From Streptomyces cathayae (GTDB taxonomy: Bacteria; Actinomycetota; Actinomycetes; Streptomycetales; Streptomycetaceae), in contig NZ_CP121682.1 in NCBI RefSeq assembly GCF_029760955.1, positions 2,666,001 through 2,730,000 on the forward strand: 64,000 nt of DNA, read 5' to 3'. The notes beneath the pieces are model-generated. The model was not told the DNA's origin and searched no databases. It worked only from the letters and a program-made list of their open reading frames with translations. This document shows positions 5,666-55,348 of the stretch, one piece after another (positions within the stretch are counted from its first letter, which is position 1; each line of letters opens with the position of its first letter). Both the position numbers and the translations under genes were made by a program.

Positions 5666-7054
5666 TCAGCGCGCGACCGGCCTCAGCAGCAGCCGGTTCG
5701 GCCGCAGAGTGATGCCGACGTGGGGGGCGTCGTCGGAGCCGGACACCTGCTCGAAGCGGTACCGCGTCGCCAGCGCGGCCGTGACCAGGGTCAGCTGGGC
5801 CATCGAGAAGTGATCGCTCGGGCACTTCCGGTTGCCGACGCTGAACGGCCTCATGGCGTACTTCGGAATGTCCTTCACCCGCTCCGGGAGCCAGCGGTCG
5901 GGATCGAACTCCAGGTGGCGCTCGTACGACTTCGGATCGCGCTGGATCGCGTACGGACTGTAGATGATGTCCGCCCCGGCCGGAATGCGATAGCCACCGA
6001 GTTCCTTGTCGGCGACCGCCCTGCGCGTCAATATCCAGACGGCCGGCCGTAAACGCATGGCCTCGACGACGACATTGTTGGTGTGGGCGAGCTTGCGGAC
6101 GTCCTCGAATGCCACCGGACGCCCACCGGTGACGTCGAGGACTTCGTTTCGCACCCTGTCCCCGTGTTCCGGATGCGCGGCGAGCGCCTGAAGCAGCCAC
6201 ATGATCGTGGAGGCGATCGTCTCACTGCCGGGAGTGAGTATCGCGACCACCTGGTCGTGGATCTCCTGCTCCCCGATCGGGTCGCCGTTGTCGTCCTTCG
6301 CCGTCAGCAATGCCGTCAGCAGATCGTCCGGCTTCTGACCGGACGCACGGCGCTCGGCGACGATCTCGTCGACCACGCGGTGCAAATCGGCCAGGGCCCG
6401 GTTGAATGCGCGATTGGCCGGCAGCGGCAGCTTGTACAGCGGGCCGAGCGGCACCACCATCCGCCGGTACATGCCGCGGAAGACGGTGGCGAGCGCGGCG
6501 CACAGCCGCTCCGCCCGCTCGTCCATGTACTCACCGCGCAGCAGACAGCGCGCCGCGACGCGCACGGCGATCCGGAACGACTCGGAGGTGCAGTCGACCG
6601 TCTCCCCCGTCGCCCAGCGTTCGGTCAGCGCGTGGACCTCCTCCTCCATGATCGGGCCGTAGGCGGGGATGGCGTCGAGCTTGAAGGCGGGCTGGATGAT
6701 GCGCCGCTGGCGCCGGTGCAGCGGGCCGTTGGCCGTGGCCACGCCCTCCTTGCCGAGCAGGCCCTCCAGGGACTCCCACAGGGGGCCGGAGATGATGTAG
6801 TCGGGATCGAGCGCCAGCGCCCCGGTGAGGGCGGGCGTGGTGACGGCGTACACCGTCTTGGGGCCGAGCTTCAGTCGCACGATGTCGCCGTGGTCGCGCA
6901 GCTGCGCCATGAAGGCCAGCGGATCGCGGACCAGTTTGAGGCCGTGGCCCAGGCCGGGGACCCCGCCGCCGGCCACCGGAGGCTCGCGCAGTTCGGTCAC
7001 CCCCGACACGTCGGACACGTCGGACGCGTCGGGCTTCACCGACTCGACGGTCAT
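5666..7054 (-). CDS. cyp170A1: cytochrome P450 CYP170A1-like, epi-isozizaene oxidase (albaflavenone biosynthesis)
   Basis: A 462-residue P450 that by synteny and length is CYP170A1, which oxidises epi-isozizaene through albaflavenol to the sesquiterpene ketone albaflavenone. The heme loop is [14 protein letters not shown] with ligand C411, the ExxR helix is EAMRLRP (E331-R334), and the I-helix reads [12 protein letters not shown]. coelicolor CYP170A1 also has a second farnesene synthase activity attributed to a terpene-synthase-like acidic motif; a DDNGD sequence is present here at 254-258. The start ATG at 7054 overlaps the upstream terpene synthase stop by four bases (ATGA), so the two are co-translated. 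The 3' end is convergent with nrdB. Confidence 0.93.
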
Positions 7055-8136
7055 TTCTCACCTGCCGCTTCGTTGTTGACGTACGGGGGCGTGGAGCGGT
7101 CGTCCCAGCTGTCGACCATGTACCGGCCGGACTCGTGGTGGAACCAGTAGACGGAACTGAACCAGTTCCGCATGTTTCCGAGGCAGACCCGTACGGCGGC
7201 CCCCAGTTCCTTTCCTCCAGTCGTTCCGTCGTCGAGGCTGTCGGCGAACTTCAGGGCGCTTCGTTCGGCGTCCAGGAATTCCTTGACGCATTCCTCGACG
7301 CGGTGCCGCACATCGGCGACCGCCTCTTCGAGGGTCAGCCCTTCATGGGTGATGAGACTGATTCCGAGATTGTGCACCTCACTCCCCGCTATTTCCTTCG
7401 GGAGCGAGCAGAGGTCGTTGTACCAGGCGGCGAATTCCTGGCTGAGCAGGGCCGCTTTCCGATAGGACGGGTTCTTCCGTACGGCGTCCGGGAGTTCACA
7501 GCCCGCACTCGGCTCCAGGAGGTCGGTCCAGATCCAGTGCGCGAAGGTGAGCCGACGCAGTTCGAGGTACTCCTCGACGGTGGGGACGATCCCCTCCGTC
7601 CGGTTGCGGAACTCCCGGTCGTACGCCTCGATCACCGCGTGGAAGTGCCGGGCGAACCGGACGTTCCAGGTGTCCGGAAGGAACGAGTACAGCCGCCGCA
7701 CACTGTCCGCGAGCCCGGCCACCAGTGGATCCTCGTGGCGCAGGTGGTCCGTGGGGCTGTCGAGAGCCGCGTGCAGCAGGCCCTTCAGCCGCCGCCAGGC
7801 GGCGGGCCGGCCGTGCACGATGTCGCGGTCGTGACGGTCGTCCCAGACGAAGAACCACGCGCTGTAGTCCGCTATCGCCTGCAGGACCTCGTCGGCGGCG
7901 TCCGTGTAGTAGCCCGCCATGAGGTCCGTGTAGCACAGGCCATCGGCATATTCCACCACCTTGTCGGGCGGCATCAGCCGCTTTTCGAGCAGCCATGCAC
8001 GGGTTTCCTGCTGGAGTTTCGGCCAATAAGGATGGATCTGCCGGGGAAACGCCGCCTCGATCAGCGGGAGAGACAGCGCCTGCGGTACCGCGACGGTGGT
8101 CGGTTTCGATGTGGTGCCGTGTGACAAAGCATGCAC
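7051..8136 (-). CDS. cyc1: epi-isozizaene synthase (sesquiterpene cyclase)
   Basis: Cyclises farnesyl diphosphate to epi-isozizaene using Mg2+. GTG 8136 gives 361 residues, the S. coelicolor enzyme length, beginning [11 protein letters not shown]; a GAGAGGGGA site lies upstream and the longer open frame has no family-like sequence. The aspartate-rich motif DDRHD is at 99-103 and the NSE triad NDLCSLPKE has N240, S244 and E248, the same numbers as in the characterised enzyme. The C-terminus ([19 protein letters not shown]) is also typical. It is the first gene of the operon with CYP170A1 and together they should suffice to make albaflavenone. Confidence 0.96.
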
Positions 8137-8475
8137 GAACAATCCCCTCTCGGCCGCCGGTTGACATGTGCCCGGCCCTCTCCGCCGGGCGTGCGCCGGT
8201 GCGTATCCACCCCTCCATTCAGCACCACAACTGACCACCCTGGGAACGCGTTTGCTTCATTCACTACCCCACGATGCCGAGATTCTCCCCTTGTGCGGCT
8301 GATTTCAGGGTTGATGACCCGTCGAGGAGTCGAACATGTGACGGAAAAACGAACGGCGTCCGGTCCGGAAGGGAATCCGGACCGGACGCCGTGCGCAGGG
8401 GAGGCCGGTGCCCCGTGGGGCCTTGAGCGGCGACAGGGGCCACCGGACTCCAGAGGAGGACGAGGGCCCCGGCGG
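8137..8475. other. intergenic region between def and the terpene operon
   Basis: This 339-base stretch holds the leader of the terpene synthase gene at its left end and the def terminator (8354-8391). No credible gene was seen. A confident promoter for the terpene operon could not be picked. Confidence 0.6.
8354..8391 (-). terminator. intrinsic terminator downstream of def
   Basis: A 15-bp perfect stem (8354-8368 with 8377-8391) and 8-nt loop; reading leftward on the minus strand it is followed by TTCGTTTTTCCG, a T-rich tract uncommon in this genome. It lies 84 bases after the def stop. Confidence 0.85.
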
Positions 8476-9126
8476 TCAGTCGTTGGCGACCACGGGGTAG
8501 CGCGGCTCGTTCTCGGCCATCTGCCGCAGCGCGTCCTTGCGTTCCCGCTTGGACAGCCGGTCGATGTAGAGGTAGCCGTAGAGGTGGTCGGTCTCGTGCT
8601 GCAGACACCGTGCGAAGTAGCCGGTGCCGCGCACCTTGACCGGGTTGCCCCGCTCGTCCTGACCGGTCACCTCGGCGTAGTCGGGCCGGGCCAGCGGAGC
8701 GTACGCGGTGGGCACCGACAGGCAGCCCTCGTTGGTGTCGTCCAGCCGGCGCTGCTCGGCGGGCAGTTCGACCAGCTCGGGGTTGCAGACCACTCCGGCG
8801 TGGCGCACGCCCTCGTCATCCGGGCAGTCGTAGACGAAGACCTTCAGGTCGACGCCGATCTGGTTCGCGGCCAGCCCCACGCCCTCCGCGGTGCGCTGGC
8901 TGGCGAACATGTCCGCGACCAGCTGCTGGAGTTCGGGGCCGAAGTCGGTGACGTCCCTGCACTCCTTGTGCAGCACCGGGTTGCCGACCACGGTGATCGG
9001 TCGCGAGGTGCCTCGCTCGACCCAGGCGGCCTCGCGCTCGGCGCAGTCCTCCGTGTCGATGACGTACCCCTCGTCGTCGACGGGGAGCACGCCCGCGTGC
9101 TGCTGATCGGTGTCCTGCTGAGCCAT
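8476..9126 (-). CDS. def: peptide deformylase
   Basis: Metallo-hydrolase that removes the formyl group from the initiator methionine of nascent proteins. 216 residues from ATG 9126. All three PDF motifs are intact: [10 protein letters not shown] (motif 1, 82-91), NEGCLSV with metal ligand C135 (motif 2), and QHETDHL with H177, E178, H181 (motif 3). The N-terminal 40 residues are an acidic actinobacterial extension ([16 protein letters not shown]). The open frame continues upstream into antisense of the TPR gene but without PDF similarity, which supports this start. It stands alone between the TPR gene and its own terminator. Confidence 0.95.
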
Positions 9127-25196: not shown

Positions 25197-25220
25197 GATG
25201 TCGCCTCATCGCGACTTCAG

Positions 25221-25294
25221 TAGCGGGGACAGGATTTGAACCTGCGACCTCTGGGTTATGAGCCCAGCGAGCTACCGAGCTGCTCCACCCCGCG
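25221..25294 (-). tRNA. initiator tRNA-fMet (CAT), copy 2
   Basis: Identical over all 74 bases to copy 1, and the five bases after the 3' end (CTTCA on the plus strand) are also the same. Same initiator hallmarks. CCA not encoded. Confidence 0.95.
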
Positions 25295-34451: not shown

Positions 34452-35207
34452 TCAGCTCCAGACGTTGCCCTGGTTCTGTCCACGGGCGCCCTGCTGGCCC
34501 ATTCCGTACTGCGCGGCGAGGCCGGAGCCGATCTGGGCGTTCTGCGGCGGCAGCAGCTCGCTGGGCTGGACGAGTACGAAGCCGCTGCCCATGAAGCTGA
34601 GCTCCCAGCCCTCACCGGTGCTGCCGCGGCGCCGCCACACCCCGGAGGAGTGGGTCTGGGCCTGCATCTGCACGCGCAGCCCCGTGGACCAGGCGACGAT
34701 CGCGTCGGCGTCGCAGTTGACGTACGTGTCCGGCGTCACCTGCATCAGCAGCGGCATGCCGGAGGTCATCAGCGCGACCTTGCCCTGGCCGGTGATGTTG
34801 AGCTGGTACTTCCCGGAGCCGGAGATGCCGTACAGGCTGTCGACGGCGATGACCTCGTGGTGCAGTGAGGAGTCCGTCGCGAGCACATAGCTGCTGTCGA
34901 CGGTCAGCCCCCCATGGTCCACGTCCATGAGATGGATGTGCTGGGCGAGGTTGGCGAGGTAGACCGTGCCCTGCCCGTGGCAGCGCATCAGGTCCAGTCC
35001 CTCACCGGTGCGCGCACGGTTGAGTGCCTGACCGTGGCTCTGGTACTCGGCGTCGAACTCGACGAGTCCCTGGTAGGCGATCATGCTGCCCTTGCGGGCG
35101 AGGATGTCGTCGTGACCCTCCAGGGCGACCCGGAGCATCTGCTTGTTCTGCAGGCTCCAGCGTTCCTGGGTCTGCTGGTCGTTGTGGGCGAAAAGCGGGC
35201 TCTGCAT
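34452..35207 (-). CDS. AIM24 family protein
   Basis: 251-residue beta-rich AIM24 (mitochondrial biogenesis AIM24-like) domain covering nearly the whole protein: MLRVALEGHDDILARKGSMI, LMRCHGQGTVYLANLAQHIH, YGISGSGKYQLNITGQGKVA. The C-terminal tail is Gly/Gln-rich (YGMGQQGARGQNQGN). No enzymatic residues are known for this family; function in bacteria is unknown. Last of three consecutive AIM24-domain genes on this strand, 17 bases after the second, so probably one operon headed by the TerD-AIM24 fusion. Confidence 0.9.
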   Translation of the reverse strand: MQSPLFAHNDQQTQERWSLQNKQMLRVALEGHDDILARKGSMIAYQGLVEFDAEYQSHGQALNRARTGEGLDLMRCHGQGTVYLANLAQHIHLMDVDHGGLTVDSSYVLATDSSLHHEVIAVDSLYGISGSGKYQLNITGQGKVALMTSGMPLLMQVTPDTYVNCDADAIVAWSTGLRVQMQAQTHSSGVWRRRGSTGEGWELSFMGSGFVLVQPSELLPPQNAQIGSGLAAQYGMGQQGARGQNQGNVWS

Positions 35208-35224
35208 GGTGTGGTTGCTCCCCC

Positions 35225-35905
35225 TCAGCCCCGGACCCGGAGACGGTCGGTGCTGTCCTCACTGGGCTGGACGACGACGATGCCCTGGCCGGAGAACGCC
35301 ATCTGGTAGGCCTCGCCGCTGCCGCGGCCGATCAGCGACTGTGCCCGGAAGCTGCGCTTGCCCTTCACCTTGAGGTTCGGGGACCAGGCGACCAGAGCGT
35401 CCGGGTCGACGTACGTCTCGTCCTCGCCACCGCCGCAGTCGACGACGATCGGCTTGCCCCGGGAGGTCAGCGCGACCCAGCCCTGCCCGGAGATCCTGGT
35501 GTTCCACAGGCCCTGCCCGGCAAATTTCGCCAGGCCCTTCACCCGCTCCACGCCCCACGACAGATGGGCGTCGAAGGCGAGCAGATTGGTGGCGTTGACG
35601 GAGATGCCGTCGCCGTTGAGGTTGATCACGACGACGTTCGCACCGTAGTCGGCGAGGTAGAGCAGGCCGTCGCCGGAGCACTTCATCAGCGGCGCGCCCT
35701 CCCCGGTCATCCAGTCCCGCGCGATCTGGCGCACGGCCGACGGGTTCGGCTCGTACTGGACGAACCCCTCGTAGGCGACCATGGACCCCACGCGCGCGAA
35801 GAGGTCGTTCCCGGTCTGCAGGGCGACCTTCAGCATGTGGTCGCCGTGGTTCTCCATGCGCGCGGTGACGGGGGCGGGGGCGTAGCCCGCGAGTGGCTGG
35901 TTCAT
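35225..35905 (-). CDS. AIM24 family protein
   Basis: 226 residues from ATG 35905 (MNQPLAGYAPAPVTARMENH). The longer open frame upstream overlaps the TerD-AIM24 gene and is not used. AIM24 repeats are visible as LFARVGSMVAYEGFVQYEPN, LMKCSGDGLLYLADYGANVV and LWNTRISGQGWVALTSRGKP. It is a paralogue of both neighbours but not a near-identical duplicate. Located 11 bases after the fusion gene stop, so almost certainly co-transcribed. Confidence 0.9.
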   Translation of the reverse strand: MNQPLAGYAPAPVTARMENHGDHMLKVALQTGNDLFARVGSMVAYEGFVQYEPNPSAVRQIARDWMTGEGAPLMKCSGDGLLYLADYGANVVVINLNGDGISVNATNLLAFDAHLSWGVERVKGLAKFAGQGLWNTRISGQGWVALTSRGKPIVVDCGGGEDETYVDPDALVAWSPNLKVKGKRSFRAQSLIGRGSGEAYQMAFSGQGIVVVQPSEDSTDRLRVRG

Positions 35906-35916
35906 GACGGGCTCCC

Positions 35917-37629
35917 TCAGATCTCGTACGGCTGGACGACGATGAAGTTGCCGGGTGCTCCCCGGAACTGGAGGTTGACGCTCTCCCCGGTGTCGCCGGG
36001 GTAGGAGTTGCGGCGCATTCGCACCTGGCTGGAGACGATCACCTGGGAGGCGGCCGACCAGGCGACCACGGCGTTGCAGTCGGCGAACGTGGTGGGCGTC
36101 ACCGGCAGCACCACGGGCACGCCGTGCGTCTTCACGACGATGGTGCCGGTCCCCTGGAACTGCATCGTGAACAGCGCGCCACCGGGAATGCCGTGCCCCT
36201 CGACACGGCGGACCTCGTACTGGAGGCCTTCGTCGAAGGCGAGGACGTTCTCGGCGGAGACGCACACGGCGTCGCCCTGGAGCTCGATCGGGTGCAGCAT
36301 CGTGGCGTCCTCGGCGAAGAACACCTGGCCCTGGCCCGTGCAGCGCATCAGCTGCATCTCCTGGCCGGTCGCGTTGCCCACGATCCGGCCGGTGAAGCCG
36401 GCGCCCTTGTAGTTGAAGTCGACCTTGCCCTGGTAGAGGACCATGCTGCCCTGTCGGGCCAGCACGGGCTGACCGCCGATGCCGAGGTCGACGCGGACGA
36501 GCTTCTGGTTCTGCTGGGTCCAGCGCTGCCCGGTGGGCGTCTCCTTGAACATCTGGAGCGCACCGAGCACACCCGGGGCCTGCGGTGCACCCTGGGGTGC
36601 GCTCGGGGGAGCGCCCTGCGGAGTCCCGTAGGGGGCCGGCGGGCCGGGCACCTGACCCGGCATCTGTGCGGGCGGCGGCTGGCCGTAGCCGGGTGGGGGT
36701 GTCGGCCCGCCGTAACCGGGCGGCGGGGCGGGTGCCTGTGGTGCCTGCGGCTGCGCGCCGTAGCCGGGGGGCGGCGGGGCGCTCGGAGCCGGCGGGCCGG
36801 GGGGCGGTGGCTGCTGGCCGGGCCGGCCGAAGGGCGCGGGCGCCGGAGCCGGAGGCGGCACCGGGGAGCCCCCGGGCGGAGTGTTCAGGGGCGCGACGAT
36901 CGTCTGCGCGGCGTGCACCGACGGCGCCGGGGGCGGGGGCGGAGTGGCGCCGGGGGGAGGGGCGAAACCCTGTGCCGCGGGCTGAGGGGCCGGCGCGGGG
37001 GCGGGAGTCGGCACGGCGGTGCCGGGGACGGCGAACGCGGGCGGCGCGAAGCCAGGAGCGGCGCCGCTCGCCTGCGGCTGCTGCGGGGCGGCGGGCTCCT
37101 CCTCCGCCACCTCACCTCCGAAGTTCTTCAGCAGCGCTTCGAGCCCACCGTCGAAGCCCTGACCGACGGCGGCGAACCGCCACACGTCCTTGAGGTAGAA
37201 GTCACCCAGCATCACCGCCCGCTCGGTGGAGAACTCGGAGCCGTCGAAGGGGTAACGGGCCACTTCCTCGCCGCCCGCGACGATGCGGATGTATCCGGGA
37301 CCGATCTGGGACATCTGCCCGGCGCCGTCGATCGTCGCCGTGAAGGACAGCTTCTTGATCTGCTGCGGGATCCGGTCCAGCGTCACCCGGAAGGATTCCG
37401 TGTCGCCGGCCTGCGCACCCAGGAGCTGGAGGGACTCCTCGGGGGACTTCGGCTGGTTGAAGAAGACGAAGTACCGGTCGTCCGAGAGCCGTTCGTCCGC
37501 GTCGAGACCGAAGCAGCTGATGTCGAAGGTGAGCCCGGGGCCGGAGATCTGCACGCCTACGTACAGATCCGTGCCAGCGGTGAGATCACTGATCCTGGCC
37601 TTGTGGCCGCGTTGGAATTCCCTGGCCAT
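35917..37629 (-). CDS. TerD domain - proline-rich linker - AIM24 domain fusion protein
   Basis: 570-residue three-part protein. Residues 1-175 are a TerD/calcium-binding stress domain (ISCFGLDADERLSDDRYFVF, FTATIDGAGQMSQIGPGYIR). Residues about 176-355 are a Pro/Gly/Ala-rich linker with PPPGYG-type repeats. Residues 356-570 are an AIM24 domain (LVRVDLGIGGQPVLARQGSM, FQGTGTIVVKTHGVPVVLPV). TerD proteins belong to tellurite/stress systems that bind Ca2+; joining to AIM24 suggests a surface- or membrane-associated scaffold, by inference. It is the first gene of a three-gene run of AIM24 proteins. Confidence 0.92.
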   Translation of the reverse strand: MAREFQRGHKARISDLTAGTDLYVGVQISGPGLTFDISCFGLDADERLSDDRYFVFFNQPKSPEESLQLLGAQAGDTESFRVTLDRIPQQIKKLSFTATIDGAGQMSQIGPGYIRIVAGGEEVARYPFDGSEFSTERAVMLGDFYLKDVWRFAAVGQGFDGGLEALLKNFGGEVAEEEPAAPQQPQASGAAPGFAPPAFAVPGTAVPTPAPAPAPQPAAQGFAPPPGATPPPPPAPSVHAAQTIVAPLNTPPGGSPVPPPAPAPAPFGRPGQQPPPPGPPAPSAPPPPGYGAQPQAPQAPAPPPGYGGPTPPPGYGQPPPAQMPGQVPGPPAPYGTPQGAPPSAPQGAPQAPGVLGALQMFKETPTGQRWTQQNQKLVRVDLGIGGQPVLARQGSMVLYQGKVDFNYKGAGFTGRIVGNATGQEMQLMRCTGQGQVFFAEDATMLHPIELQGDAVCVSAENVLAFDEGLQYEVRRVEGHGIPGGALFTMQFQGTGTIVVKTHGVPVVLPVTPTTFADCNAVVAWSAASQVIVSSQVRMRRNSYPGDTGESVNLQFRGAPGNFIVVQPYEI

Positions 37630-37738
37630 GCGTACGACCGTCCCCCATCCCGAATGTGAGTGCGTCGCGCCAGGCTAACGGCAAATCCGGACAACCGACG
37701 ATGTCGGTACAGACCCGGTACACAACACGCGCGTGCCC

Positions 37739-48058: not shown

Positions 48059-51000
48059 CTATCGGCCCGCGGAGGTGTCCTCGGAGTGCGGTATCTCACC
48101 GGACGGTTCCTCCAGCAGCAGCCGCTCCAGCGCCTCGCGGTCCGGCAGCGCGTCGGGGCGTACGACCTCGCCGGTGCGTACGTACAGGAAGGCGGCGGTG
48201 ACCGACCCCAGGGGGACGCCCTGCTGCTCGGCCCAGGCGATCCGGTAGACGGCGAGCTGGAGGGGGTCGGCGGTGCGGTTGCGGTGGGTCTTCCAGTCGA
48301 CGATCTCGTACGTCGTCCCGTCGCCGGCGTCTCCCTCCCCTCCGGCGGCCTTCTCTCCGGTGGCCTGCCGGTAGACGGCGTCGATGCGGCCGCGTACGAC
48401 GCGGCCGGCGATCGCCAGCTGGAAGGGAGCCTCCACGCGGTAGGGCGTGCGGCGGGCGTACTCGGTGCGTTCGAAGGCGTCCTTGAGGGCCGCGAGGTCG
48501 TGTTCGTCGGCGATCTCGGCTTCGCTGCCGGGAAGCTCGTCGGGTTCGAGCATGGGCAGTGTCAGTTCTTCGAAGCGGCTCTCGACCCAGGCGTGGAAGC
48601 GGGTGCCGCGGCGCGCGGCGGGTTGCGGCGGTCGGGGCATGGGGCGGACCAGTTCCTGGGCGAAGCCGTCCGGGTCGGCGGCCAGGCGCAGCAGCTGGGA
48701 CGTGGTCAGCGACGCGGGCAGCAGGACCTCGGTGACGCTGTCGCGGGCGCGCAGCAGTTCGCCGGTGAGGGCGTCGAGGTCGCGGTCCCAGGAGGCGACG
48801 GTGCGGGCTTCCTCGGGGGTGAGCCGGGGTGGGGCGGGCTCCGGAGGGGGCGCCTGGTGCGGGATCCGGAGCGGGACGACGGGCCGGCCGCCGTCCGGAC
48901 GGCCGTCGTCGGGACGGCCGTCGTCGGGACCGCCGTCGTCGGGACCGCCGTCGTCGGGACCGCCGTCGGTGGTGGGGCGGTCGGTGGTGGGGCGGTCGGT
49001 GGTCCAGGAGTCCCAGTCGCCGGAGTCGTCGTCCGTGAAGGGGTCGCCCTCCTCGGGCGGGAGGTGCTCGTCGTCCGGCGGCGGGGGCCAGTCCGGATCG
49101 GCGTACGTGCCGGGAGCGTGGACGGCCGTGGGGTGGCCGTCCGGGTCGCCGGCGAGGCTTTCCAGGTGGGCCAGGACGGTCTCGGCGGCGGCGCGGCGGC
49201 GGGCGAGGGCGTCCTCGTCCAGCGGGAGGGGCCACGCCTGGTCCTGGGCGGCCCGGTGCAGGGCGGGGTTCTCCTCGCCCTCGGCGGGCGCGTCCGCCCA
49301 GGCCTCGATCTCGCCGTGTCCGGCGGCGCAGTGGTCGTGGAGGGCCTGCAGGAAGGCGGACGGCCCGCGCGGTTTCTTCTGCGAGGGCCCCCACCAGTGG
49401 CCGGAGCCGAGCAGCAGCGAGCGGGGGCGGGTGAAGGTGACGTAGCCGAGGCGGAGCTCCTCGGTGTGCTGGTGCTCCTTCATGGCGTCGTGGAAGGCCT
49501 TCAGGCCCCTGGAGTCCCAGGACCCGACATCGGGCAGGGTGTCGGCGTCGCCGCGCAGTCCGTGGGGCAGCACCTTGCCCTGTGCGGTCCACTTCTCGCG
49601 CCCCTGGCCGCTGGGGAACGTACCGGTGACCAGTCCGGGGACGGCCACCACGTCCCACTCCAGGCCCTTGGACTTGTGGGCGGTGAGGACCTTGACGGTG
49701 TTCTCGCCACCCGGCAGCGCGTTGTCGAGGCCCTTCTCGTACTGGGCGGCGGTGCGCAGGAAGCCGAGGAAGGCGAGCAGGGTCGCCTCGCCGTCCCCGG
49801 CGGCGAAGGAGGCGGCGACGTCGAGGAAGTTGGACAGGGTCTCGCGGCGGCGGGCGGCGAGGGCGTGCGGGGACGCCGACAGTTCGATCTCCAGACCGGT
49901 GACGGCGAGGACGCGGTGCAGGACGTCCATCAGCGGGTCGGCCAGGGAGCGGCGCAGGTCGCGCAGTTCGGTGGCCAGCCGGGCGAACCGCACGCGCGCG
50001 TCCGGTGAGAAGGGCAGCCCGTCGTCGCCCGGCCCGTCCAGGGGTGTCTCCAGGAACGTGTCGAGGGCGTCGGCGAGTGAGATCACTTCGGCCGGGTCGA
50101 CCCCTTCGACGGCTGCGGCGAGACGGCGGTCGGGGTCGTCCTCGCCGTCCACGCGCGCGTGGGTCACGAGCAGTCGCGCACGGCGGCCGAGCAGGGCGAG
50201 GTCGCGGGGTCCGATGCGCCAGCGCGGGCCGGTCAGCAGGCGGACCAGGGAGGCGTTGGCCCCGGGGTCCTGGAGGACCTCGCAGACGGCGACCAGGTCG
50301 GCGATCTCGGGCAGGTGCAGCAGCCCGGACAGGCCGACGACCTCCACGGGGACGTCCCGGGCGACGAGGGCGCCCTGGATCTGGGCGAAGTCGGTCGCCG
50401 TGCGGCACAGGACGGCGATCTCGCCGGGTGCCTTCCCGGTGCGTACGAGGTGGGCGATGGAGTCGGCGATCCAGTCGAGTTCCTCGGCATGGGTGTGCAG
50501 CAGGGCGCAGCGGACGGTGCCGTCGCGTTCGGCTCCCGGGGCCGGGCGGAGGGCTTCCACTCCGGCGTGCATGGCCCGCAGGGGGTCGGCGAGGCCGTTG
50601 GCGAGGTCCAGCAGGCGGCCGCCGCTGCGGCGGTTCTCACTGAGCGACTGACGGGTGGCGGGGCCGCCGTCGGCCCGGGCGAAGTGCTCGGGGAAGTCGT
50701 CGAGGTTGGCGACGGAGGCGCCGCGCCAGCCGTAGATCGCCTGGCAGGGGTCGCCGACGGCGGTCACCGGGTGGCCGGTGCCGCCGCCGAACAGGCCGGC
50801 CAGCAGGACGCGCTGGGCGACCGAGGTGTCCTGGTACTCGTCGAGGAGGACCACGCGGAACTCGTCGCGCAGGACGCGGCCCACGTCGGGGATCCGGGCG
50901 AGCCGGGCCGAGAGGGCGATCTGGTCGCCGAAGTCGAGCAGGTCGCGTTCGCGTTTGGCGGCCCGGTAGCGCAGGACGAGGTCGGCCAGTTCGCGCCGGG

Positions 51001-51649
51001 CGGCGGCCGCTTCGGGCACTTTGCGCAGGTCGGCGTTGGTGAGCCGGGTGTTCTCCAGGGTGCGCAGCAGTTCGGTGTCGTGGTCGCGCAGGTCCTCGGG
51101 CCGTACGAGGTGCTCGGAGAGTTCGCCGTCGAGGGTGAGGAGGTCGCCGACCAGGTCGGGGAAGGAGCGGGTCAGTGCCGGGTAGAGGCCGGGAGCCTCG
51201 CGCAGCACCCGCGCGGCGAGCTGGTAGCGGGTCGCGTCGGCGAGGAGGCGGGAGGTCGGTTCGAGGCCGAGGCGCAGCCCGTGGTCGGTCAGGAGGCGGC
51301 CCGCGAAGGCGTGGTAGGTGGAGATCACCGGTTCGCCCGGCGGGTTGTCCGGGTCGAGAGGGTCGGGGTCGGTCACGCCGGCCTTGACCAGTGCCTTGCG
51401 GACGCGTTCGGCGAGTTCGCCGGCGGCCTTGTTGGTGAAGGTGAGGCCGAGCACCTGCTCCGGGGCGACCTGGCCGGTGCCGACCAGCCACACCACGCGC
51501 GCCGCCATCACCGTCGTCTTGCCCGAGCCGGCTCCGGCCACGATCACCTGGGGGGCGGGCGGCGCGACGATGCAGGCCGTCTGCTCCGGGGTGAAGGGGA
51601 TGCCGAGGAGTTCCTTGAGCTGATCGGGGTCGGTGAGAGGTGCGGGCAC
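48059..51649 (-). CDS. UvrD-like helicase with RecB-type nuclease domain (AdnAB-like subunit)
   Basis: 1196 residues from GTG 51649 (VPAPLTDPDQLKELL); GTG 51679 is an alternative. Walker A AGAGSGKT (38-45), DEYQDTSVAQRVLLAGLFGG, and other SF1 motifs. The C-terminus is a PD-(D/E)XK nuclease: VRGRIDAVYRQ, then YEIVDWKTHRNRTADPLQLA. This corresponds to one subunit of the mycobacterial AdnAB helicase-nuclease that processes DNA double-strand ends for recombination. Between motor and nuclease is a 15-bp tandem-repeat insert (about residues 881-921). Operon with the related gene upstream. Confidence 0.92.
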   Translation of the reverse strand: MPAPLTDPDQLKELLGIPFTPEQTACIVAPPAPQVIVAGAGSGKTTVMAARVVWLVGTGQVAPEQVLGLTFTNKAAGELAERVRKALVKAGVTDPDPLDPDNPPGEPVISTYHAFAGRLLTDHGLRLGLEPTSRLLADATRYQLAARVLREAPGLYPALTRSFPDLVGDLLTLDGELSEHLVRPEDLRDHDTELLRTLENTRLTNADLRKVPEAAAARRELADLVLRYRAAKRERDLLDFGDQIALSARLARIPDVGRVLRDEFRVVLLDEYQDTSVAQRVLLAGLFGGGTGHPVTAVGDPCQAIYGWRGASVANLDDFPEHFARADGGPATRQSLSENRRSGGRLLDLANGLADPLRAMHAGVEALRPAPGAERDGTVRCALLHTHAEELDWIADSIAHLVRTGKAPGEIAVLCRTATDFAQIQGALVARDVPVEVVGLSGLLHLPEIADLVAVCEVLQDPGANASLVRLLTGPRWRIGPRDLALLGRRARLLVTHARVDGEDDPDRRLAAAVEGVDPAEVISLADALDTFLETPLDGPGDDGLPFSPDARVRFARLATELRDLRRSLADPLMDVLHRVLAVTGLEIELSASPHALAARRRETLSNFLDVAASFAAGDGEATLLAFLGFLRTAAQYEKGLDNALPGGENTVKVLTAHKSKGLEWDVVAVPGLVTGTFPSGQGREKWTAQGKVLPHGLRGDADTLPDVGSWDSRGLKAFHDAMKEHQHTEELRLGYVTFTRPRSLLLGSGHWWGPSQKKPRGPSAFLQALHDHCAAGHGEIEAWADAPAEGEENPALHRAAQDQAWPLPLDEDALARRRAAAETVLAHLESLAGDPDGHPTAVHAPGTYADPDWPPPPDDEHLPPEEGDPFTDDDSGDWDSWTTDRPTTDRPTTDGGPDDGGPDDGGPDDGRPDDGRPDGGRPVVPLRIPHQAPPPEPAPPRLTPEEARTVASWDRDLDALTGELLRARDSVTEVLLPASLTTSQLLRLAADPDGFAQELVRPMPRPPQPAARRGTRFHAWVESRFEELTLPMLEPDELPGSEAEIADEHDLAALKDAFERTEYARRTPYRVEAPFQLAIAGRVVRGRIDAVYRQATGEKAAGGEGDAGDGTTYEIVDWKTHRNRTADPLQLAVYRIAWAEQQGVPLGSVTAAFLYVRTGEVVRPDALPDREALERLLLEEPSGEIPHSEDTSAGR
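48886..49005 (-). repeat. 15-bp coding minisatellite in the helicase-nuclease gene
   Basis: Eight in-frame 15-bp units run from 48886 to 49005 (for example 48901-48915 and 48916-48930 are identical, as are 48931-48945 and 48946-48960, and 48976-48990 nearly repeats in 48991-49005). On the minus strand they encode five-residue units TDRPT, TDRPT, TDGGP, DDGGP, DDGGP, DDGRP, DDGRP, DGGRP. Confidence 0.9.
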
Positions 51650-51749
51650 ATCGCAGAGGCTAACGGTGATCGCTGACACCCGGGGCCGGACGGCGCTCCG
51701 GGGGCGGTGAACCGCGGGCCGGTGCGGGCGGCGCGCTGCGTGAGGCCCG

Positions 51750-54700
51750 TCACTCGACCACGTGCCGCCCCTCGGGCCGGGCGCTGCACGAGGCCTGGAA
51801 GGCGCAGTGGGCGCAGTGCTGGCCGGTGCTCGGGGTGAAGCGTTCGTCGAGGACCTTGCCGGCCGCCGTGGCGAGCAGGTCGCCGACCCACTCCCCCTCC
51901 AGCGGCTGCTGGGCCTGCACCTTGGGCAGGGTCTCCCCGCCGTCCCGTCCGGCGGCGCCCTGGCGCAGCTGGACCAGCTCGGCACCCCCCGTCTCGGGGC
52001 GTTTGCCGTCGAACACCTCGTCGACTGCGCCCTCCTGGACGGCGAGCTGGTAGACGGCGAGCTGGGGGTGGCGGGCCACCTCGGCGGAGCTGGGGGCCTG
52101 TTTCCCGGTCTTGAAGTCGACGACGTAGGCGCGGCCCTCGCCGTCGGTCTCGACGCGGTCCATCTGGCCGCGGATGCGGACCTCGTAGTCGCCGGCCGCG
52201 AGGCTCACGTCGAAGTCGTGCTCGCTGGCCACCGGGGTGCGTCCGGCGCGGTCCATGACGTGCCACTGCAGGAAGCGTTCGAGTGCCACGCGCGCGTTCT
52301 GCTTCTCCTGCTGCGACTTCCACGGTGCGTCGAAGGCGAGCGCGTTCCACACGGAGTCGAGGCGTTCCATGAGGACGGCGAGGTCGGCCGGGGTGTGCCC
52401 GGAGGCCACCTCGTCGGCGAGGACGTGCACCACGTTGCCGAAGCCCTGGGCGGCGGTCGCGGGTGCGTCGGCCTTCACCTCCCGGCCGAGGAACCACTGC
52501 AGGGCGCAGGTGTGGGCGAGCTGGTCCAGGGCGCTGCCGGAGAGCACGACGGGCTGGTCGCGGCTGCGCAGCGGCACCTTGCTCCGGGTGGGTTCGTACA
52601 TGCCCCACCAGCGGTAGGGGTGGGCGGACGGCACCAGGGGGCGTCCGTCCTCGTCGGCGAGGGCGGCGAGCCGGGCGAGCCGGTGGGCGGCGGCCTCCCT
52701 GAGGGTGTCGGAGACGCGCGGGTCGACCGTGGTGGCGCGCAGTTCGGCGACGAGCGCGGCGACGGACAGCGGGCGGCGCGGGCGGCCGGTGACGTCCTTG
52801 GGCTCGACGCCGAGTTCGGTCAGGAAGCGGGAGGGCTGGTCGCCGTCGTCGGCGGGGGCCTTCACGGCCGTCACGACGAGGCGTTCCCGCGCGCGGGTGG
52901 CCGCCACGTAGAACAGCCGGCGTTCCTCGGCGAGGAGCGCGCCGGGGGTGAGCGGTTCGGCGAGTCCGTCGCGGCCGATGCGGTCGGCCTCCAGCAGGGA
53001 GCCGCGGCGGCGCAGGTCGGGCCAGAGGCCCTCCTGGACGCCGGCCACGACGACCAGCCGCCACTCCAGGCCCTTGGCGCGGTGCGCGGTCATCAGGCGT
53101 ACGGCGTCGGGGCGTACGGCGCGTCGGGTGAGGGTGTCGGCGGCGATGTCCTCGGCGTCGATCTCCTCCAGGAAGTTCAGGGCGCCCCGGCCGCCGATGC
53201 GTTCCTCGGCGCGGGCGGCGGTCGCGAACAGGGCGCACACCGCGTCGAGGTCCCGGTCGGCGTGGCGTCCGGCGGCGCCGCCCCGGCGGGCGGCGCGTTC
53301 CAGGCGTGCGGGCCACGGGGTGCCGTCCCACAGGTCCCACAGCGCCTCCTCGGCGGTGCCGCCGTCGGCGAGGCGTGCGCGGGCCGTGCGCAGCAGCGCG
53401 CCGAGCCGCTGGGCGCCGCGCGCGTACGTGGGGTCGTGCACGACCAGCCGCTCGGGTTCGGCCAGCGCGCGTGCGAGGAGTTCGTCCGAGGGCGGTGGCA
53501 GGGGGTTGCCCGCGGCCCGCTCCTCCTCGCGCAGGGCCCGGCCGAGGCGGCGCAGGTCCGCGGCGTCCATGCCGGCGAGGGGGGAGGTGAGCAGGGTGAG
53601 GGCGGTTTCGGTGTCGAGCCAGCGGGGCTCTTGCCGGACCTGCTCCTGCGGCTGCTCCTGCTCCTGTCCCTGCCCCGGCTCCGGGTTCCGTCCCCTCTCC
53701 TGCTCCTGCTCCCGCTCTCGTCCCGGGCCGTCGGCCGCCTCCGCCGTCGCCACCGCCCGCAGGGCCGTCAGCAGCGGGGTCACCGCCGGTTCGTGGCGCA
53801 GGGGGAGGTCGTCGCCGTCGACGTCCACCGGGACGCCGGCCGAGGTGAGGGCGCGGCGGACGACGGGGAGGGTGCGGGAGCCGGCCCGCACCAGGACGGC
53901 CATGTCGCTCCAGGCGACGCCGTCCTCCAGGTGGGCCCTGCGCAGGATGTCGGCGATGTTGTCCAGTTCCGTACCGGGGGTCGGGTACGTGTAGACCTCG
54001 GCCCGGCCGCCGTCCCGGGCCGGTGTGAGTTCCCGGTGGGCGCGGACCTTCTCGGCGGGGAGGCGGGTCAGCGGCATGCGCTGGGTGACCAGGCGGGTGG
54101 CGGACAGCAGGGCCGCGCCGGAGCGGCGCGAGACCCGGAGCACCTCGACCGGGGCCGGGCGGCCGTCCGCGCGGGGGAACGCCTCGGGGAAGTCCAGGAT
54201 GCCGTTCACGTCCGCGCCCCGGAAGGCGTAGATCGACTGGTCCGGGTCGCCGAACGCGACCAGGGTGCGGCCGCCGCCGGCCAGCGCGTGCAGCAGTCGC
54301 ACCTGGGCCGGGTCGGTGTCCTGGTACTCGTCGACGTACACGGCGTCGTACCGCGCGGCGAGCTGCCGGGCGATCTCGGGGCGGCGGGCGAGGAGCACCG
54401 CGCGGTGGACCAGTTCGGCGTAGTCGAGCACGCCCTGCAGGTCGAGGACGTCGAGGTACTCGGCGAGGAAGGCGGAGGCGGCACGCCAGTCGGGGCGTCC
54501 GATGCGGCGGGCGAAGGCGTCCAGGGCGTCGGGGCCGAGGCCCAGTTCACGGCTGCGGGCGAGCACCGCGCGGACCTCGTCGGCGAAGCCGCGGGTGGTC
54601 AGGCAGGCCCGCAGTTCGTCCGGCCAGCGCACGTGTGCCAGACCGAGGCGTTCGAGGTCCGTCTGGCCGGCCAGCAGCTCACGGACGGTGACGTCCTGTT

Positions 54701-55130
54701 CGGGGCCCGAGAGCAGGCGCAGCGGTTCCACGAAGAGATCGCTGTCCTGGTGGGCGCGGATCAGGGCGTAGCAGAACGAGTGGAACGTGGTCGCCTGCGG
54801 GGCGCGTGCGGCTCCTGTCCGCAGGGCCATGCGGTCGCGCAGCTCGACGGCCGCCCGGCGGCTGAACGTCAGCACGAGGATGCGTTCGGCATCACCTCCA
54901 CGGGCGATACGCGCGGCCACGGACTCGACGAGCGTGGTCGTTTTCCCGGTGCCCGGACCTGCGAGAACGATCATCGGTCCGGTCTCGTGGTCAACCACGG
55001 AGCGCTGCGCGGCGTCCAGTCGTGGGGGAGTCTTGCGAGCCGGCGGGGTACGGACCAGCCGATGAGCGCCACGGGCCCCCCGCCGCACCTGGGGGTGCGA
55101 CAGGCCGTTGGTGGAGAAAGAGGAGCTCAC
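51750..55130 (-). CDS. UvrD-like helicase with RecB-type nuclease domain and Fe-S cysteines (AdnAB-like subunit)
   Basis: 1126 residues from GTG 55130 (VSSSFSTNGLSHPQVRRG). Walker A AGPGTGKT (57-64), VDEYQDTDPAQVRLLHAL, QSIYAFRGADVNGILDF, AATRARERLVV. C-terminal nuclease: VRIRGQMDRVETDGEG, YVVDFKTGKQA, HPQLAVYQLAV. Cysteines in HTCALQWF and CAHCAFQASC fit the iron-sulfur staple of AddB-type nucleases. A Gln/Glu-rich low-complexity insert (EREQEQERGRNPEPGQGQ) sits near residue 470. Upstream member of the two-gene AdnAB-like operon; which subunit equals AdnA or AdnB is not certain. Confidence 0.9.
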   Translation of the reverse strand: MSSSFSTNGLSHPQVRRGARGAHRLVRTPPARKTPPRLDAAQRSVVDHETGPMIVLAGPGTGKTTTLVESVAARIARGGDAERILVLTFSRRAAVELRDRMALRTGAARAPQATTFHSFCYALIRAHQDSDLFVEPLRLLSGPEQDVTVRELLAGQTDLERLGLAHVRWPDELRACLTTRGFADEVRAVLARSRELGLGPDALDAFARRIGRPDWRAASAFLAEYLDVLDLQGVLDYAELVHRAVLLARRPEIARQLAARYDAVYVDEYQDTDPAQVRLLHALAGGGRTLVAFGDPDQSIYAFRGADVNGILDFPEAFPRADGRPAPVEVLRVSRRSGAALLSATRLVTQRMPLTRLPAEKVRAHRELTPARDGGRAEVYTYPTPGTELDNIADILRRAHLEDGVAWSDMAVLVRAGSRTLPVVRRALTSAGVPVDVDGDDLPLRHEPAVTPLLTALRAVATAEAADGPGREREQEQERGRNPEPGQGQEQEQPQEQVRQEPRWLDTETALTLLTSPLAGMDAADLRRLGRALREEERAAGNPLPPPSDELLARALAEPERLVVHDPTYARGAQRLGALLRTARARLADGGTAEEALWDLWDGTPWPARLERAARRGGAAGRHADRDLDAVCALFATAARAEERIGGRGALNFLEEIDAEDIAADTLTRRAVRPDAVRLMTAHRAKGLEWRLVVVAGVQEGLWPDLRRRGSLLEADRIGRDGLAEPLTPGALLAEERRLFYVAATRARERLVVTAVKAPADDGDQPSRFLTELGVEPKDVTGRPRRPLSVAALVAELRATTVDPRVSDTLREAAAHRLARLAALADEDGRPLVPSAHPYRWWGMYEPTRSKVPLRSRDQPVVLSGSALDQLAHTCALQWFLGREVKADAPATAAQGFGNVVHVLADEVASGHTPADLAVLMERLDSVWNALAFDAPWKSQQEKQNARVALERFLQWHVMDRAGRTPVASEHDFDVSLAAGDYEVRIRGQMDRVETDGEGRAYVVDFKTGKQAPSSAEVARHPQLAVYQLAVQEGAVDEVFDGKRPETGGAELVQLRQGAAGRDGGETLPKVQAQQPLEGEWVGDLLATAAGKVLDERFTPSTGQHCAHCAFQASCSARPEGRHVVE

Positions 55131-55348
55131 GTGGTTCGCCGGTCCTGGTGGGTGTGCTGGTTGCCGTTCCACCGTGTGGGGTGGGCGGTGGCCGCGGGGT
55201 CGGAGAGACACCTGCTGGTGACGCTAGACCGACGGGGAGTGCGGAAGCAGGGCCTCCGTATTTTCCCTCCCGACGCTCGCGGCACGCGTGTCACTCGCCC
55301 CACGAACGTACGTCATGGCACGGTCGTGCCCCGTTTCCCCCATACGGA

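Follow-up and report, generated by a model that had tools for sequence, protein, structure and literature searches.

The closest described relatives of the locus analysed here are the AIM24 genes found with ter genes. Anantharaman, Iyer and Aravind (2012), as cited in an excerpt of PMC5822837, found AIM24 genes to be frequent neighbours of TerD genes and suggested that the products interact; the same excerpt links ter genes to phage and colicin resistance and gives the role of prokaryotic AIM24 as unknown. In yeast, Aim24 is described in an excerpt of PMC3975624 as a hydrophilic protein with a TRAP-like beta fold by prediction, tightly associated with the membrane without a transmembrane helix and present in a complex of about 400 kDa. 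We analysed a stretch of 64,000 nucleotides (nt) of Streptomyces cathayae DNA (the window; contig NZ_CP121682.1, positions 2,666,001 to 2,730,000), in which three adjacent genes on the minus strand (37629-34452) encode a TerD domain fused through a Pro-rich linker to an AIM24 domain, followed by two free AIM24 proteins. We find that this operon is a discrete module and a variant of the known TerD-AIM24 association. Our best explanation, to which we assign a probability of roughly one half, is that its products form one three-subunit AIM24 hetero-oligomeric body carrying a tethered, adapter-like TerD head. The sequence-only reading of this DNA had called the genes an undescribed system, which is only partly right: the linkage of TerD with AIM24 is published and AIM24 trios adjoin ter genes elsewhere. 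PMC5822837 was the one paper found to name TerD together with AIM24. A literature search returned no paper on an AIM24 family protein in Streptomyces; wider searches gave no title on an AIM24 trio among the matches listed, and found no paper describing an AIM24 fusion.

The operon, its parts and the gene upstream of it are as follows.

37629-35917, minus strand: fusion gene TerD::linker::AIM24, 570 residues
37120..37629, minus strand: TerD domain of the fusion, residues 1-170 (PF02342, E 6.9e-36), canonical GDN...GDDE loop degenerate
36556..37113, minus strand: Pro/Ala/Gly/Gln-rich linker of the fusion, residues 173-358, by composition
35929..36513, minus strand: AIM24 domain of the fusion, subunit A1, residues 373-567 (PF01987, E 9.7e-24)
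35225..35905, minus strand: free AIM24 protein A2, 226 residues (PF01987, E 2.2e-38)
34452..35207, minus strand: free AIM24 protein A3, 251 residues, with a C-terminal tail (PF01987, E 8.2e-33)
38362-37739, minus strand: YgjP-like metallopeptidase gene (PF01863, E 9.8e-24), directly upstream of the operon

The fusion, the two free genes and their gaps (11 nt between fusion and A2, 17 nt between A2 and A3) agree exactly with the sequence-only reading, as does the YgjP-like gene that precedes them. A1, A2 and A3 score 84.6, 132.5 and 114.3 bits against a curated PF01987 cut-off of 25.7, and the fusion head, at 123.9 bits against 25.3 for PF02342, belongs to the TerD family; the narrower TIGR00266 equivalog is not reached (24.3, 47.1 and 45.5 bits, NCBIfam cut-off 96.6). 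The linker is 37% Pro and 20% Ala, with PPPPGYG/PPPGYG at residues 285, 302 and 311, and residues 171-354 of the fusion model contain no strand or helix, block means of the predicted local distance difference test (pLDDT) being 31-55. The model of A2 (pLDDT 73.7) gives good matches to AIM24 structures only and has the fold of 1yox and 1pg6 that marks the family; no other family stood out in the fold search, and TRAP was absent among the matches listed. A2 and A3 are 33% identical. A clear transmembrane segment was not found in any of the three proteins, the highest 19-residue hydropathy mean being 1.26.

The arrangement is strongly conserved. A contig scan with the AIM24 alignment was restricted to the best 80 of 521 confirmed loci and is thereby biased toward close relatives, nearly all named Streptomyces and one an "Actinobacteria bacterium". 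A1, A2 and A3 are consecutive in all 80, so that the trio is not due to chance, and the full order ABC1, ThiF, YgjP, TerD, A1, A2, A3, NUDIX, Zincin_2 is kept in 64. Fifteen loci (range L010-L089, including L023, L028 and L039) start within the fusion linker and one ends after A3; the GC-rich, Pro-rich linker seems to break draft assemblies. Of the 65 loci extending as far as TerD, 61 have TerD and AIM24 in a single frame; of the four that do not, three were inspected, L017 and L074 showing odd frames and L088 containing unread bases. The linker varies in length among copies and is 27 residues long in the in-frame copy of L072. At the protein level, the best 120 of 3574 listed proteins carry both Pfam domains, and the near-identical named ones come from Streptomyces.

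We find that the three genes are gained and lost as one unit. In one draw of 121 Streptomycetaceae genomes, searched at E thresholds of 1e-25, 1e-40 and 1e-45 chosen to separate trio members from paralogues, A2 and A3 each occur in 72 genomes and the TerD domain in 71. All three are present together in 71 and none in 49, a pattern compared row by row, without a null model; A2 and A3 alone are found in a single draft (G168), where an assembly gap is likely because A2 starts 979 nt from the contig start and YgjP is also missing. The condition that the sequence-only reading set for its refutation, unlinked genes in relatives, was checked: TerD shares a contig with A2 and A3 in 65 of the 71 genomes, and in six drafts (G208, G220, G231, G251, G261, G264) it is on a separate contig, perhaps through a contig break inside the linker. 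Trio matches occur in 8 of the 17 genera sampled; all 28 listed genomes of the window's own genus carry the trio, and that genus is absent among the 20 listed of the 49 non-matching genomes. Even in divergent loci (L160-L177; A3 47-70% identical) TerD, A1, A2 and A3 stand in order in 17 of 18, while in L168 the contig end precedes TerD. L178 and L179 each hold just an additional A3-like gene.

Sites that lack the trio are clean. YgjP was found in all 14 of the 49 trio-less genomes checked for it, and the 13 loci fetched from these 49 all read ABC1, ThiF, YgjP, NUDIX, Zincin_2, with YgjP and NUDIX -4 to 482 nt apart (median 58). Conversely, two genomes, G189 of the own genus (L188) and G186 (L172), hold the whole trio at other sites, and none of the usual neighbours, YgjP, NUDIX and Zincin_2 included, was found near it within the 9.5-10 kb fetched. 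The own-genus locus L161 (G243) keeps YgjP on the upstream side and lacks NUDIX and Zincin_2 on the downstream side. Given its all-or-none occurrence, the clean empty sites and its relocation as a whole, the trio behaves as one insertable unit. The trio of L188 is adjoined by a metallo-beta-lactamase-fold gene and GatB; around that of L172 (52-9075) lie genes for a DDE transposase and a LacI regulator as well as an IS605-type TnpB gene.

The AIM24 units are also exchanged as a block. Three of the 28 own-genus genomes carry a divergent AIM24 allele, its three units 51-58% identical to those of the window, between a TerD head and flanks that are genus-like. In G234 (L165) and G228 (L180), identity to the window is 88-92% for YgjP, TerD and Zincin_2 and 79-80% for NUDIX, but 57-58% for A1, 53% for A2 and 52-54% for A3; in G264 (L181) the AIM24 units are 57, 56 and 51%, NUDIX 76%, Zincin_2 85% and TerD, on a separate contig, 89%. 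Compared in 200-nt bins with the typical locus L048, L165 is 84-92% identical as far as TerD extends, 41-78% across the linker, A1, A2 and A3, and 84-94% past A3. Two pairs of typical loci served as controls: their AIM24 genes are 71-96% identical, though one pair also dips in the linker (58-66%). The divergent blocks share 78-99% identity with one another. The units thus appear to have been exchanged jointly, the breakpoint lying within the linker and so dividing the TerD head from the AIM24 domain to which it is joined; a polymorphism of long standing would give the same pattern.

Pairwise distances tell a similar story in the 34 loci with all seven genes (those dropped include L181 of G264, L161, L172, L177 and L188). 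Correlations among the AIM24 units are 0.95-0.96, and partial correlations given YgjP, NUDIX and Zincin_2 are 0.89-0.92 among them as against 0.39-0.55 with TerD, which thus follows the AIM24 units less closely although it forms one polypeptide with A1. Without the mosaics L165 and L180 the partials are 0.80-0.84 versus 0.60-0.78; in a set of 26 loci they are 0.70-0.85 versus 0.31-0.54, and in a close set of 18 loci 0.46-0.72 versus 0.32-0.35. For all six pairs, those with TerD included, the observed value is higher than in any of 2000 permutations. Adjacency by itself does not account for everything, since the adjacent genes A3 and NUDIX show a weaker correlation (0.64, rising to 0.74 once the mosaics are removed). 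The AIM24 units thus show both the co-occurrence and the co-evolution expected of a three-subunit complex. The sequence-only reading had seen a multi-part module here, and it gains support from the all-or-none occurrence, the empty sites, the joint relocation and the block exchange.

The genome of the window carries another AIM24 trio (B), at 7698-9797 of L008 (G000:C1, about 2525.7-2527.8 kb), with DUF3817/MarR genes on one side and MarR/histidine-kinase genes on the other. Member for member it is 46, 41 and 54% identical to a trio of Tsukamurella (L091) and 48, 45 and 55% to one of Mycolicibacterium (L093), both from ter loci of Mycobacteriales, and it also matches AIM24 genes of L252-L254. 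The trios of Tsukamurella, Mycolicibacterium, L252 and L253 lie in or beside ter genes, that of L254 with TerD genes. In a tree of 29 rows, midpoint-rooted and with several long branches and unsure joins, B1-B3 are common to this genome and those other genera, while A1, A2 and A3 group with single actinobacterial AIM24 genes and a Nocardia fusion (support 94/91, not starred). As trios A and B fall separately in the tree, AIM24 trios seem, on this phylogeny, to have arisen more than once. The 7.6 Mb genome holds seven AIM24 places in all, the seventh a solo, unfused gene (L009, about 5988-6530, minus strand), and 22 TerD matches, fragments among them. L252 bears a four-gene AIM24 array (6398-8922) in which B3 is the best match of the third member and of the fourth. 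A further AIM24 protein, sharing 40% identity with A2, is encoded at 6001-6588 of L256 (MT835541.1), an unannotated, unverified record of a human-faeces phage collection, which may be bacterial DNA.

The TerD head has diverged from canonical TerD. Compared with solved structures and a canonical TerD of the same genome, its loop is five residues shorter and reads GDTE in place of GDN...GDDE, which we take to be the calcium ligands; GDN is missing from all 65 Streptomyces heads examined. Part of the acidic residues is retained, D36, D43, D50 and D51 being invariant in 19 head sequences. The label "Ca-binding-type" given earlier to this domain is not supported, and a calcium-type TerD was rejected for the fusion head on the loss of the motif. 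Among 396 genomes of the phylum, with at most eight candidates scored per genome, close relatives of the head outside the Streptomycetaceae were seen in only three genomes of one genus (58-59%). In the two of these that were fetched (L252 and L253), a Pro-rich linker connects the head to another domain that has no Pfam match, near an AIM24 array and genes for TerC (L252), StiP, and PRTase (L252) or HAD (L253), and the TerD protein upstream of the Tsukamurella trio has, by eye, a similar second part. TerD::AIM24 fusions by Pfam recur in Nocardia farcinica and Deinococcus taeanensis, so the plan of head, linker and body has been reused. In PHROGs the TerD region matches one phrog of unknown function (E 8.5e-9).

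How might such an operon work? In the explanation we favour, its products would constitute a single cytoplasmic assembly in which A1, A2 and A3 form a hetero-oligomeric beta-ring and A1 holds the TerD domain at the end of a flexible, Pro-rich tether some 190 residues long. The body made of AIM24 subunits would be the working part, specific for a partner or ligand, with the inner membrane face as its probable place. The head, having lost the canonical motif, may serve as a docking adapter to the other TerD-family proteins of the cell, which would place the body in the Ter stress-response network, be it for metal, oxidative or envelope stress. We favour three subunits because the AIM24 units are exchanged as a block with a breakpoint in the linker, and we count on the same side the all-or-none occurrence, the empty sites, the whole trios at other sites, the distance correlations, the second trio in this genome and in or beside ter clusters elsewhere, the low hydropathy, and the membrane-bound yeast protein with its large complex.

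Several observations weigh against this explanation. The single-chain model of the fusion is weak (predicted template modelling score 0.34), its TerD part fair and its AIM24 part weak. A single AIM24 copy is present in 47 of the 55 matching genomes of a phylum sample; with single genes so common, an AIM24 protein does not require two partners. No additional AIM24 gene accompanies the fusions of Nocardia and Deinococcus within the 16.6 and 13.3 kb retrieved around them. In L175, as in the four loci noted above, TerD and A1 are not in one frame, and a few fusion copies may be split or misassembled. Physical adjacency by itself makes neighbours co-inherit, and the mosaic loci and faster AIM24 evolution (mean distance 0.39-0.49, TerD 0.23) supply part of the distance correlation: without the mosaics TerD and A3 correlate nearly as well as the AIM24 units (raw 0.89, partial 0.78), and in the 18-locus set the A1-A2 partial of 0.46 is little above the TerD values.

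These points bear on the alternative that survives best, that the three co-transcribed paralogues form separate homo-oligomers sharing out an ancestral job, the operon serving dosage. The abundance of solo AIM24 genes and the modest identity of A2 and A3 speak for it, but all-or-none occurrence, block exchange of all three units and the existence of trios in two separate groups do not; it is possible, though we lean away from it. An extension of the three-subunit body, conceivable but unlikely, is that the AIM24 body acts as a specificity cassette swapped between Streptomyces strains by recombination in the disordered linker under a constant TerD head. If true, the operon would encode a head-and-body machine whose body sets the target, be it a lipid, a patch of metal-stressed membrane or some foreign factor.

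Two further proposals are improbable to a similar degree. One is a calcium-responsive device in which TerD would bind calcium and switch the AIM24 body, by analogy with what is suggested for SCO2368. Titles reportedly tie the Streptomyces coelicolor TerD-domain proteins tdd8 and SCO2368 to differentiation and calcium, the latter to calcium homeostasis; the TerD domain and its four invariant acidic residues would suit such a device, whereas the loss of the loop described above argues against it. The other is a cassette for defence against, or recognition of, phages or bacteriocins, with the AIM24 block polymorphic through an arms race. Block replacement within one genus, the faster evolution of AIM24, the G186 trio with a DDE transposase on one side and a TnpB gene of IS605 type on the other, and the resistance attributed to ter genes in the excerpt of PMC5822837 fit this picture; however, PADLOC returns 0 families for the three proteins, the usual site is housekeeping-like without mobile genes among the proteins scanned, and retention of the trio in 28 of 28 listed own-genus genomes would be unusual for defence genes. 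Least credible is that YgjP belongs to the system and processes one of its proteins, for although it lies directly upstream on the same strand in the window and in all 65 loci reaching it, it persists beside NUDIX where the trio is absent, is missing beside the L172 and L188 trios, and stands 108-326 nt from the fusion with a conserved repeat between; we therefore rejected it as a component and regard it as a neighbour.

The repeat and a second conserved element were found by comparison of upstream sequences.

37705..37722, minus strand: direct repeat of 11-nt period, TGTACCG-N4-TGTACCG, operator-like, upstream of the operon
37671..37679, minus strand: conserved GTTAGCCTG, each base at least 95% identical in 66 sequences, possible -10 region

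The repeat is exact in 54 of 66 aligned Streptomyces upstream sequences, and present with at most one mismatch in 64 and at most two in all 66. With two mismatches allowed, 8 of 11 additional own-genus loci reaching TerD have it ahead of that gene, as does 1 of 20 loci from the family's other genera, where it is on the opposite strand; it is hence largely a feature of the genus. It looks like a putative site for a dedicated regulator, and GTTAGCCTG is a possible promoter -10 region as judged from its conservation. At one mismatch the repeat has a single match in its own genome, as has a backward control, and a regulon was rejected on this count; it was not found at this stringency in the own-genome loci L008, L009 and L126-L129. 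A scan of the operon for sigma-70-like promoters and terminators found nothing, and Rfam gives no match inside it.

Other features of the window and of the genomes compared are listed here.

1746-1958 of the window, plus strand: cobalamin riboswitch, 37.1 bits
22991-23065 and 25220-25294 of the window, minus strand: two tRNA-Met (CAT) genes of equal score flanking a TPR protein gene
48059-55211 of the window, minus strand: two overlapping UvrD helicase / PD-(D/E)XK nuclease frames, resembling the AdnAB pair
G165:C1:1830378 and 1452883, G167:C2:308054, G152:C1:6580671, G177:C29, G183:C89, G149:C25, G175:C34: extra A3-like genes (48-51%), found away from the trio in genera g119 and g122
G000:C1:41126-41529, C1:7426175-7426579 and C2:124957-125361: TerD fragments in three pairs with identical scores

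These fragment pairs are situated close to either end of the chromosome contig and on contig 2, which suggests shared terminal repeats.

AIM24 spans bacteria, archaea (7 of 14 archaeal control genomes) and mitochondria, and a tractable Streptomyces operon with natural allele swaps and an adapter offers a route to the questions of AIM24 hetero-oligomers and of their link to TerD. Among known systems the AIM24 genes of ter clusters come closest, in that TerD and AIM24 are linked and, according to the excerpted source, proposed to interact. The window trio differs in belonging to another group of the tree, in being headed by a TerD::AIM24 fusion and in its surroundings, for of the canonical ter-cluster genes TerC, TerB, StiP, PRTase and HAD none is found among the 19 window proteins scanned between 23.2 and 55.2 kb. 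The fusions of Deinococcus taeanensis and Nocardia farcinica share the plan of TerD, Pro-rich linker and AIM24 in one protein; that of Deinococcus, unlike the window fusion, is near TerD and VWA-TerD genes, and the other AIM24 places of the Nocardia record lie elsewhere than at its fusion. The structures 1yox (PA3696) and 1pg6 (SpyM3_0169) are of proteins of unknown function, 15-23% identical. The coelicolor proteins tdd8 and SCO2368, of which the latter appears in the sigma-E regulon as listed in an excerpt of PMC6767563, resemble the window head in having a TerD domain in Streptomyces. Yeast Aim24 belongs to the same family as the window proteins, but it acts at the mitochondrial inner membrane, with MICOS and cardiolipin functions, and has no TerD.

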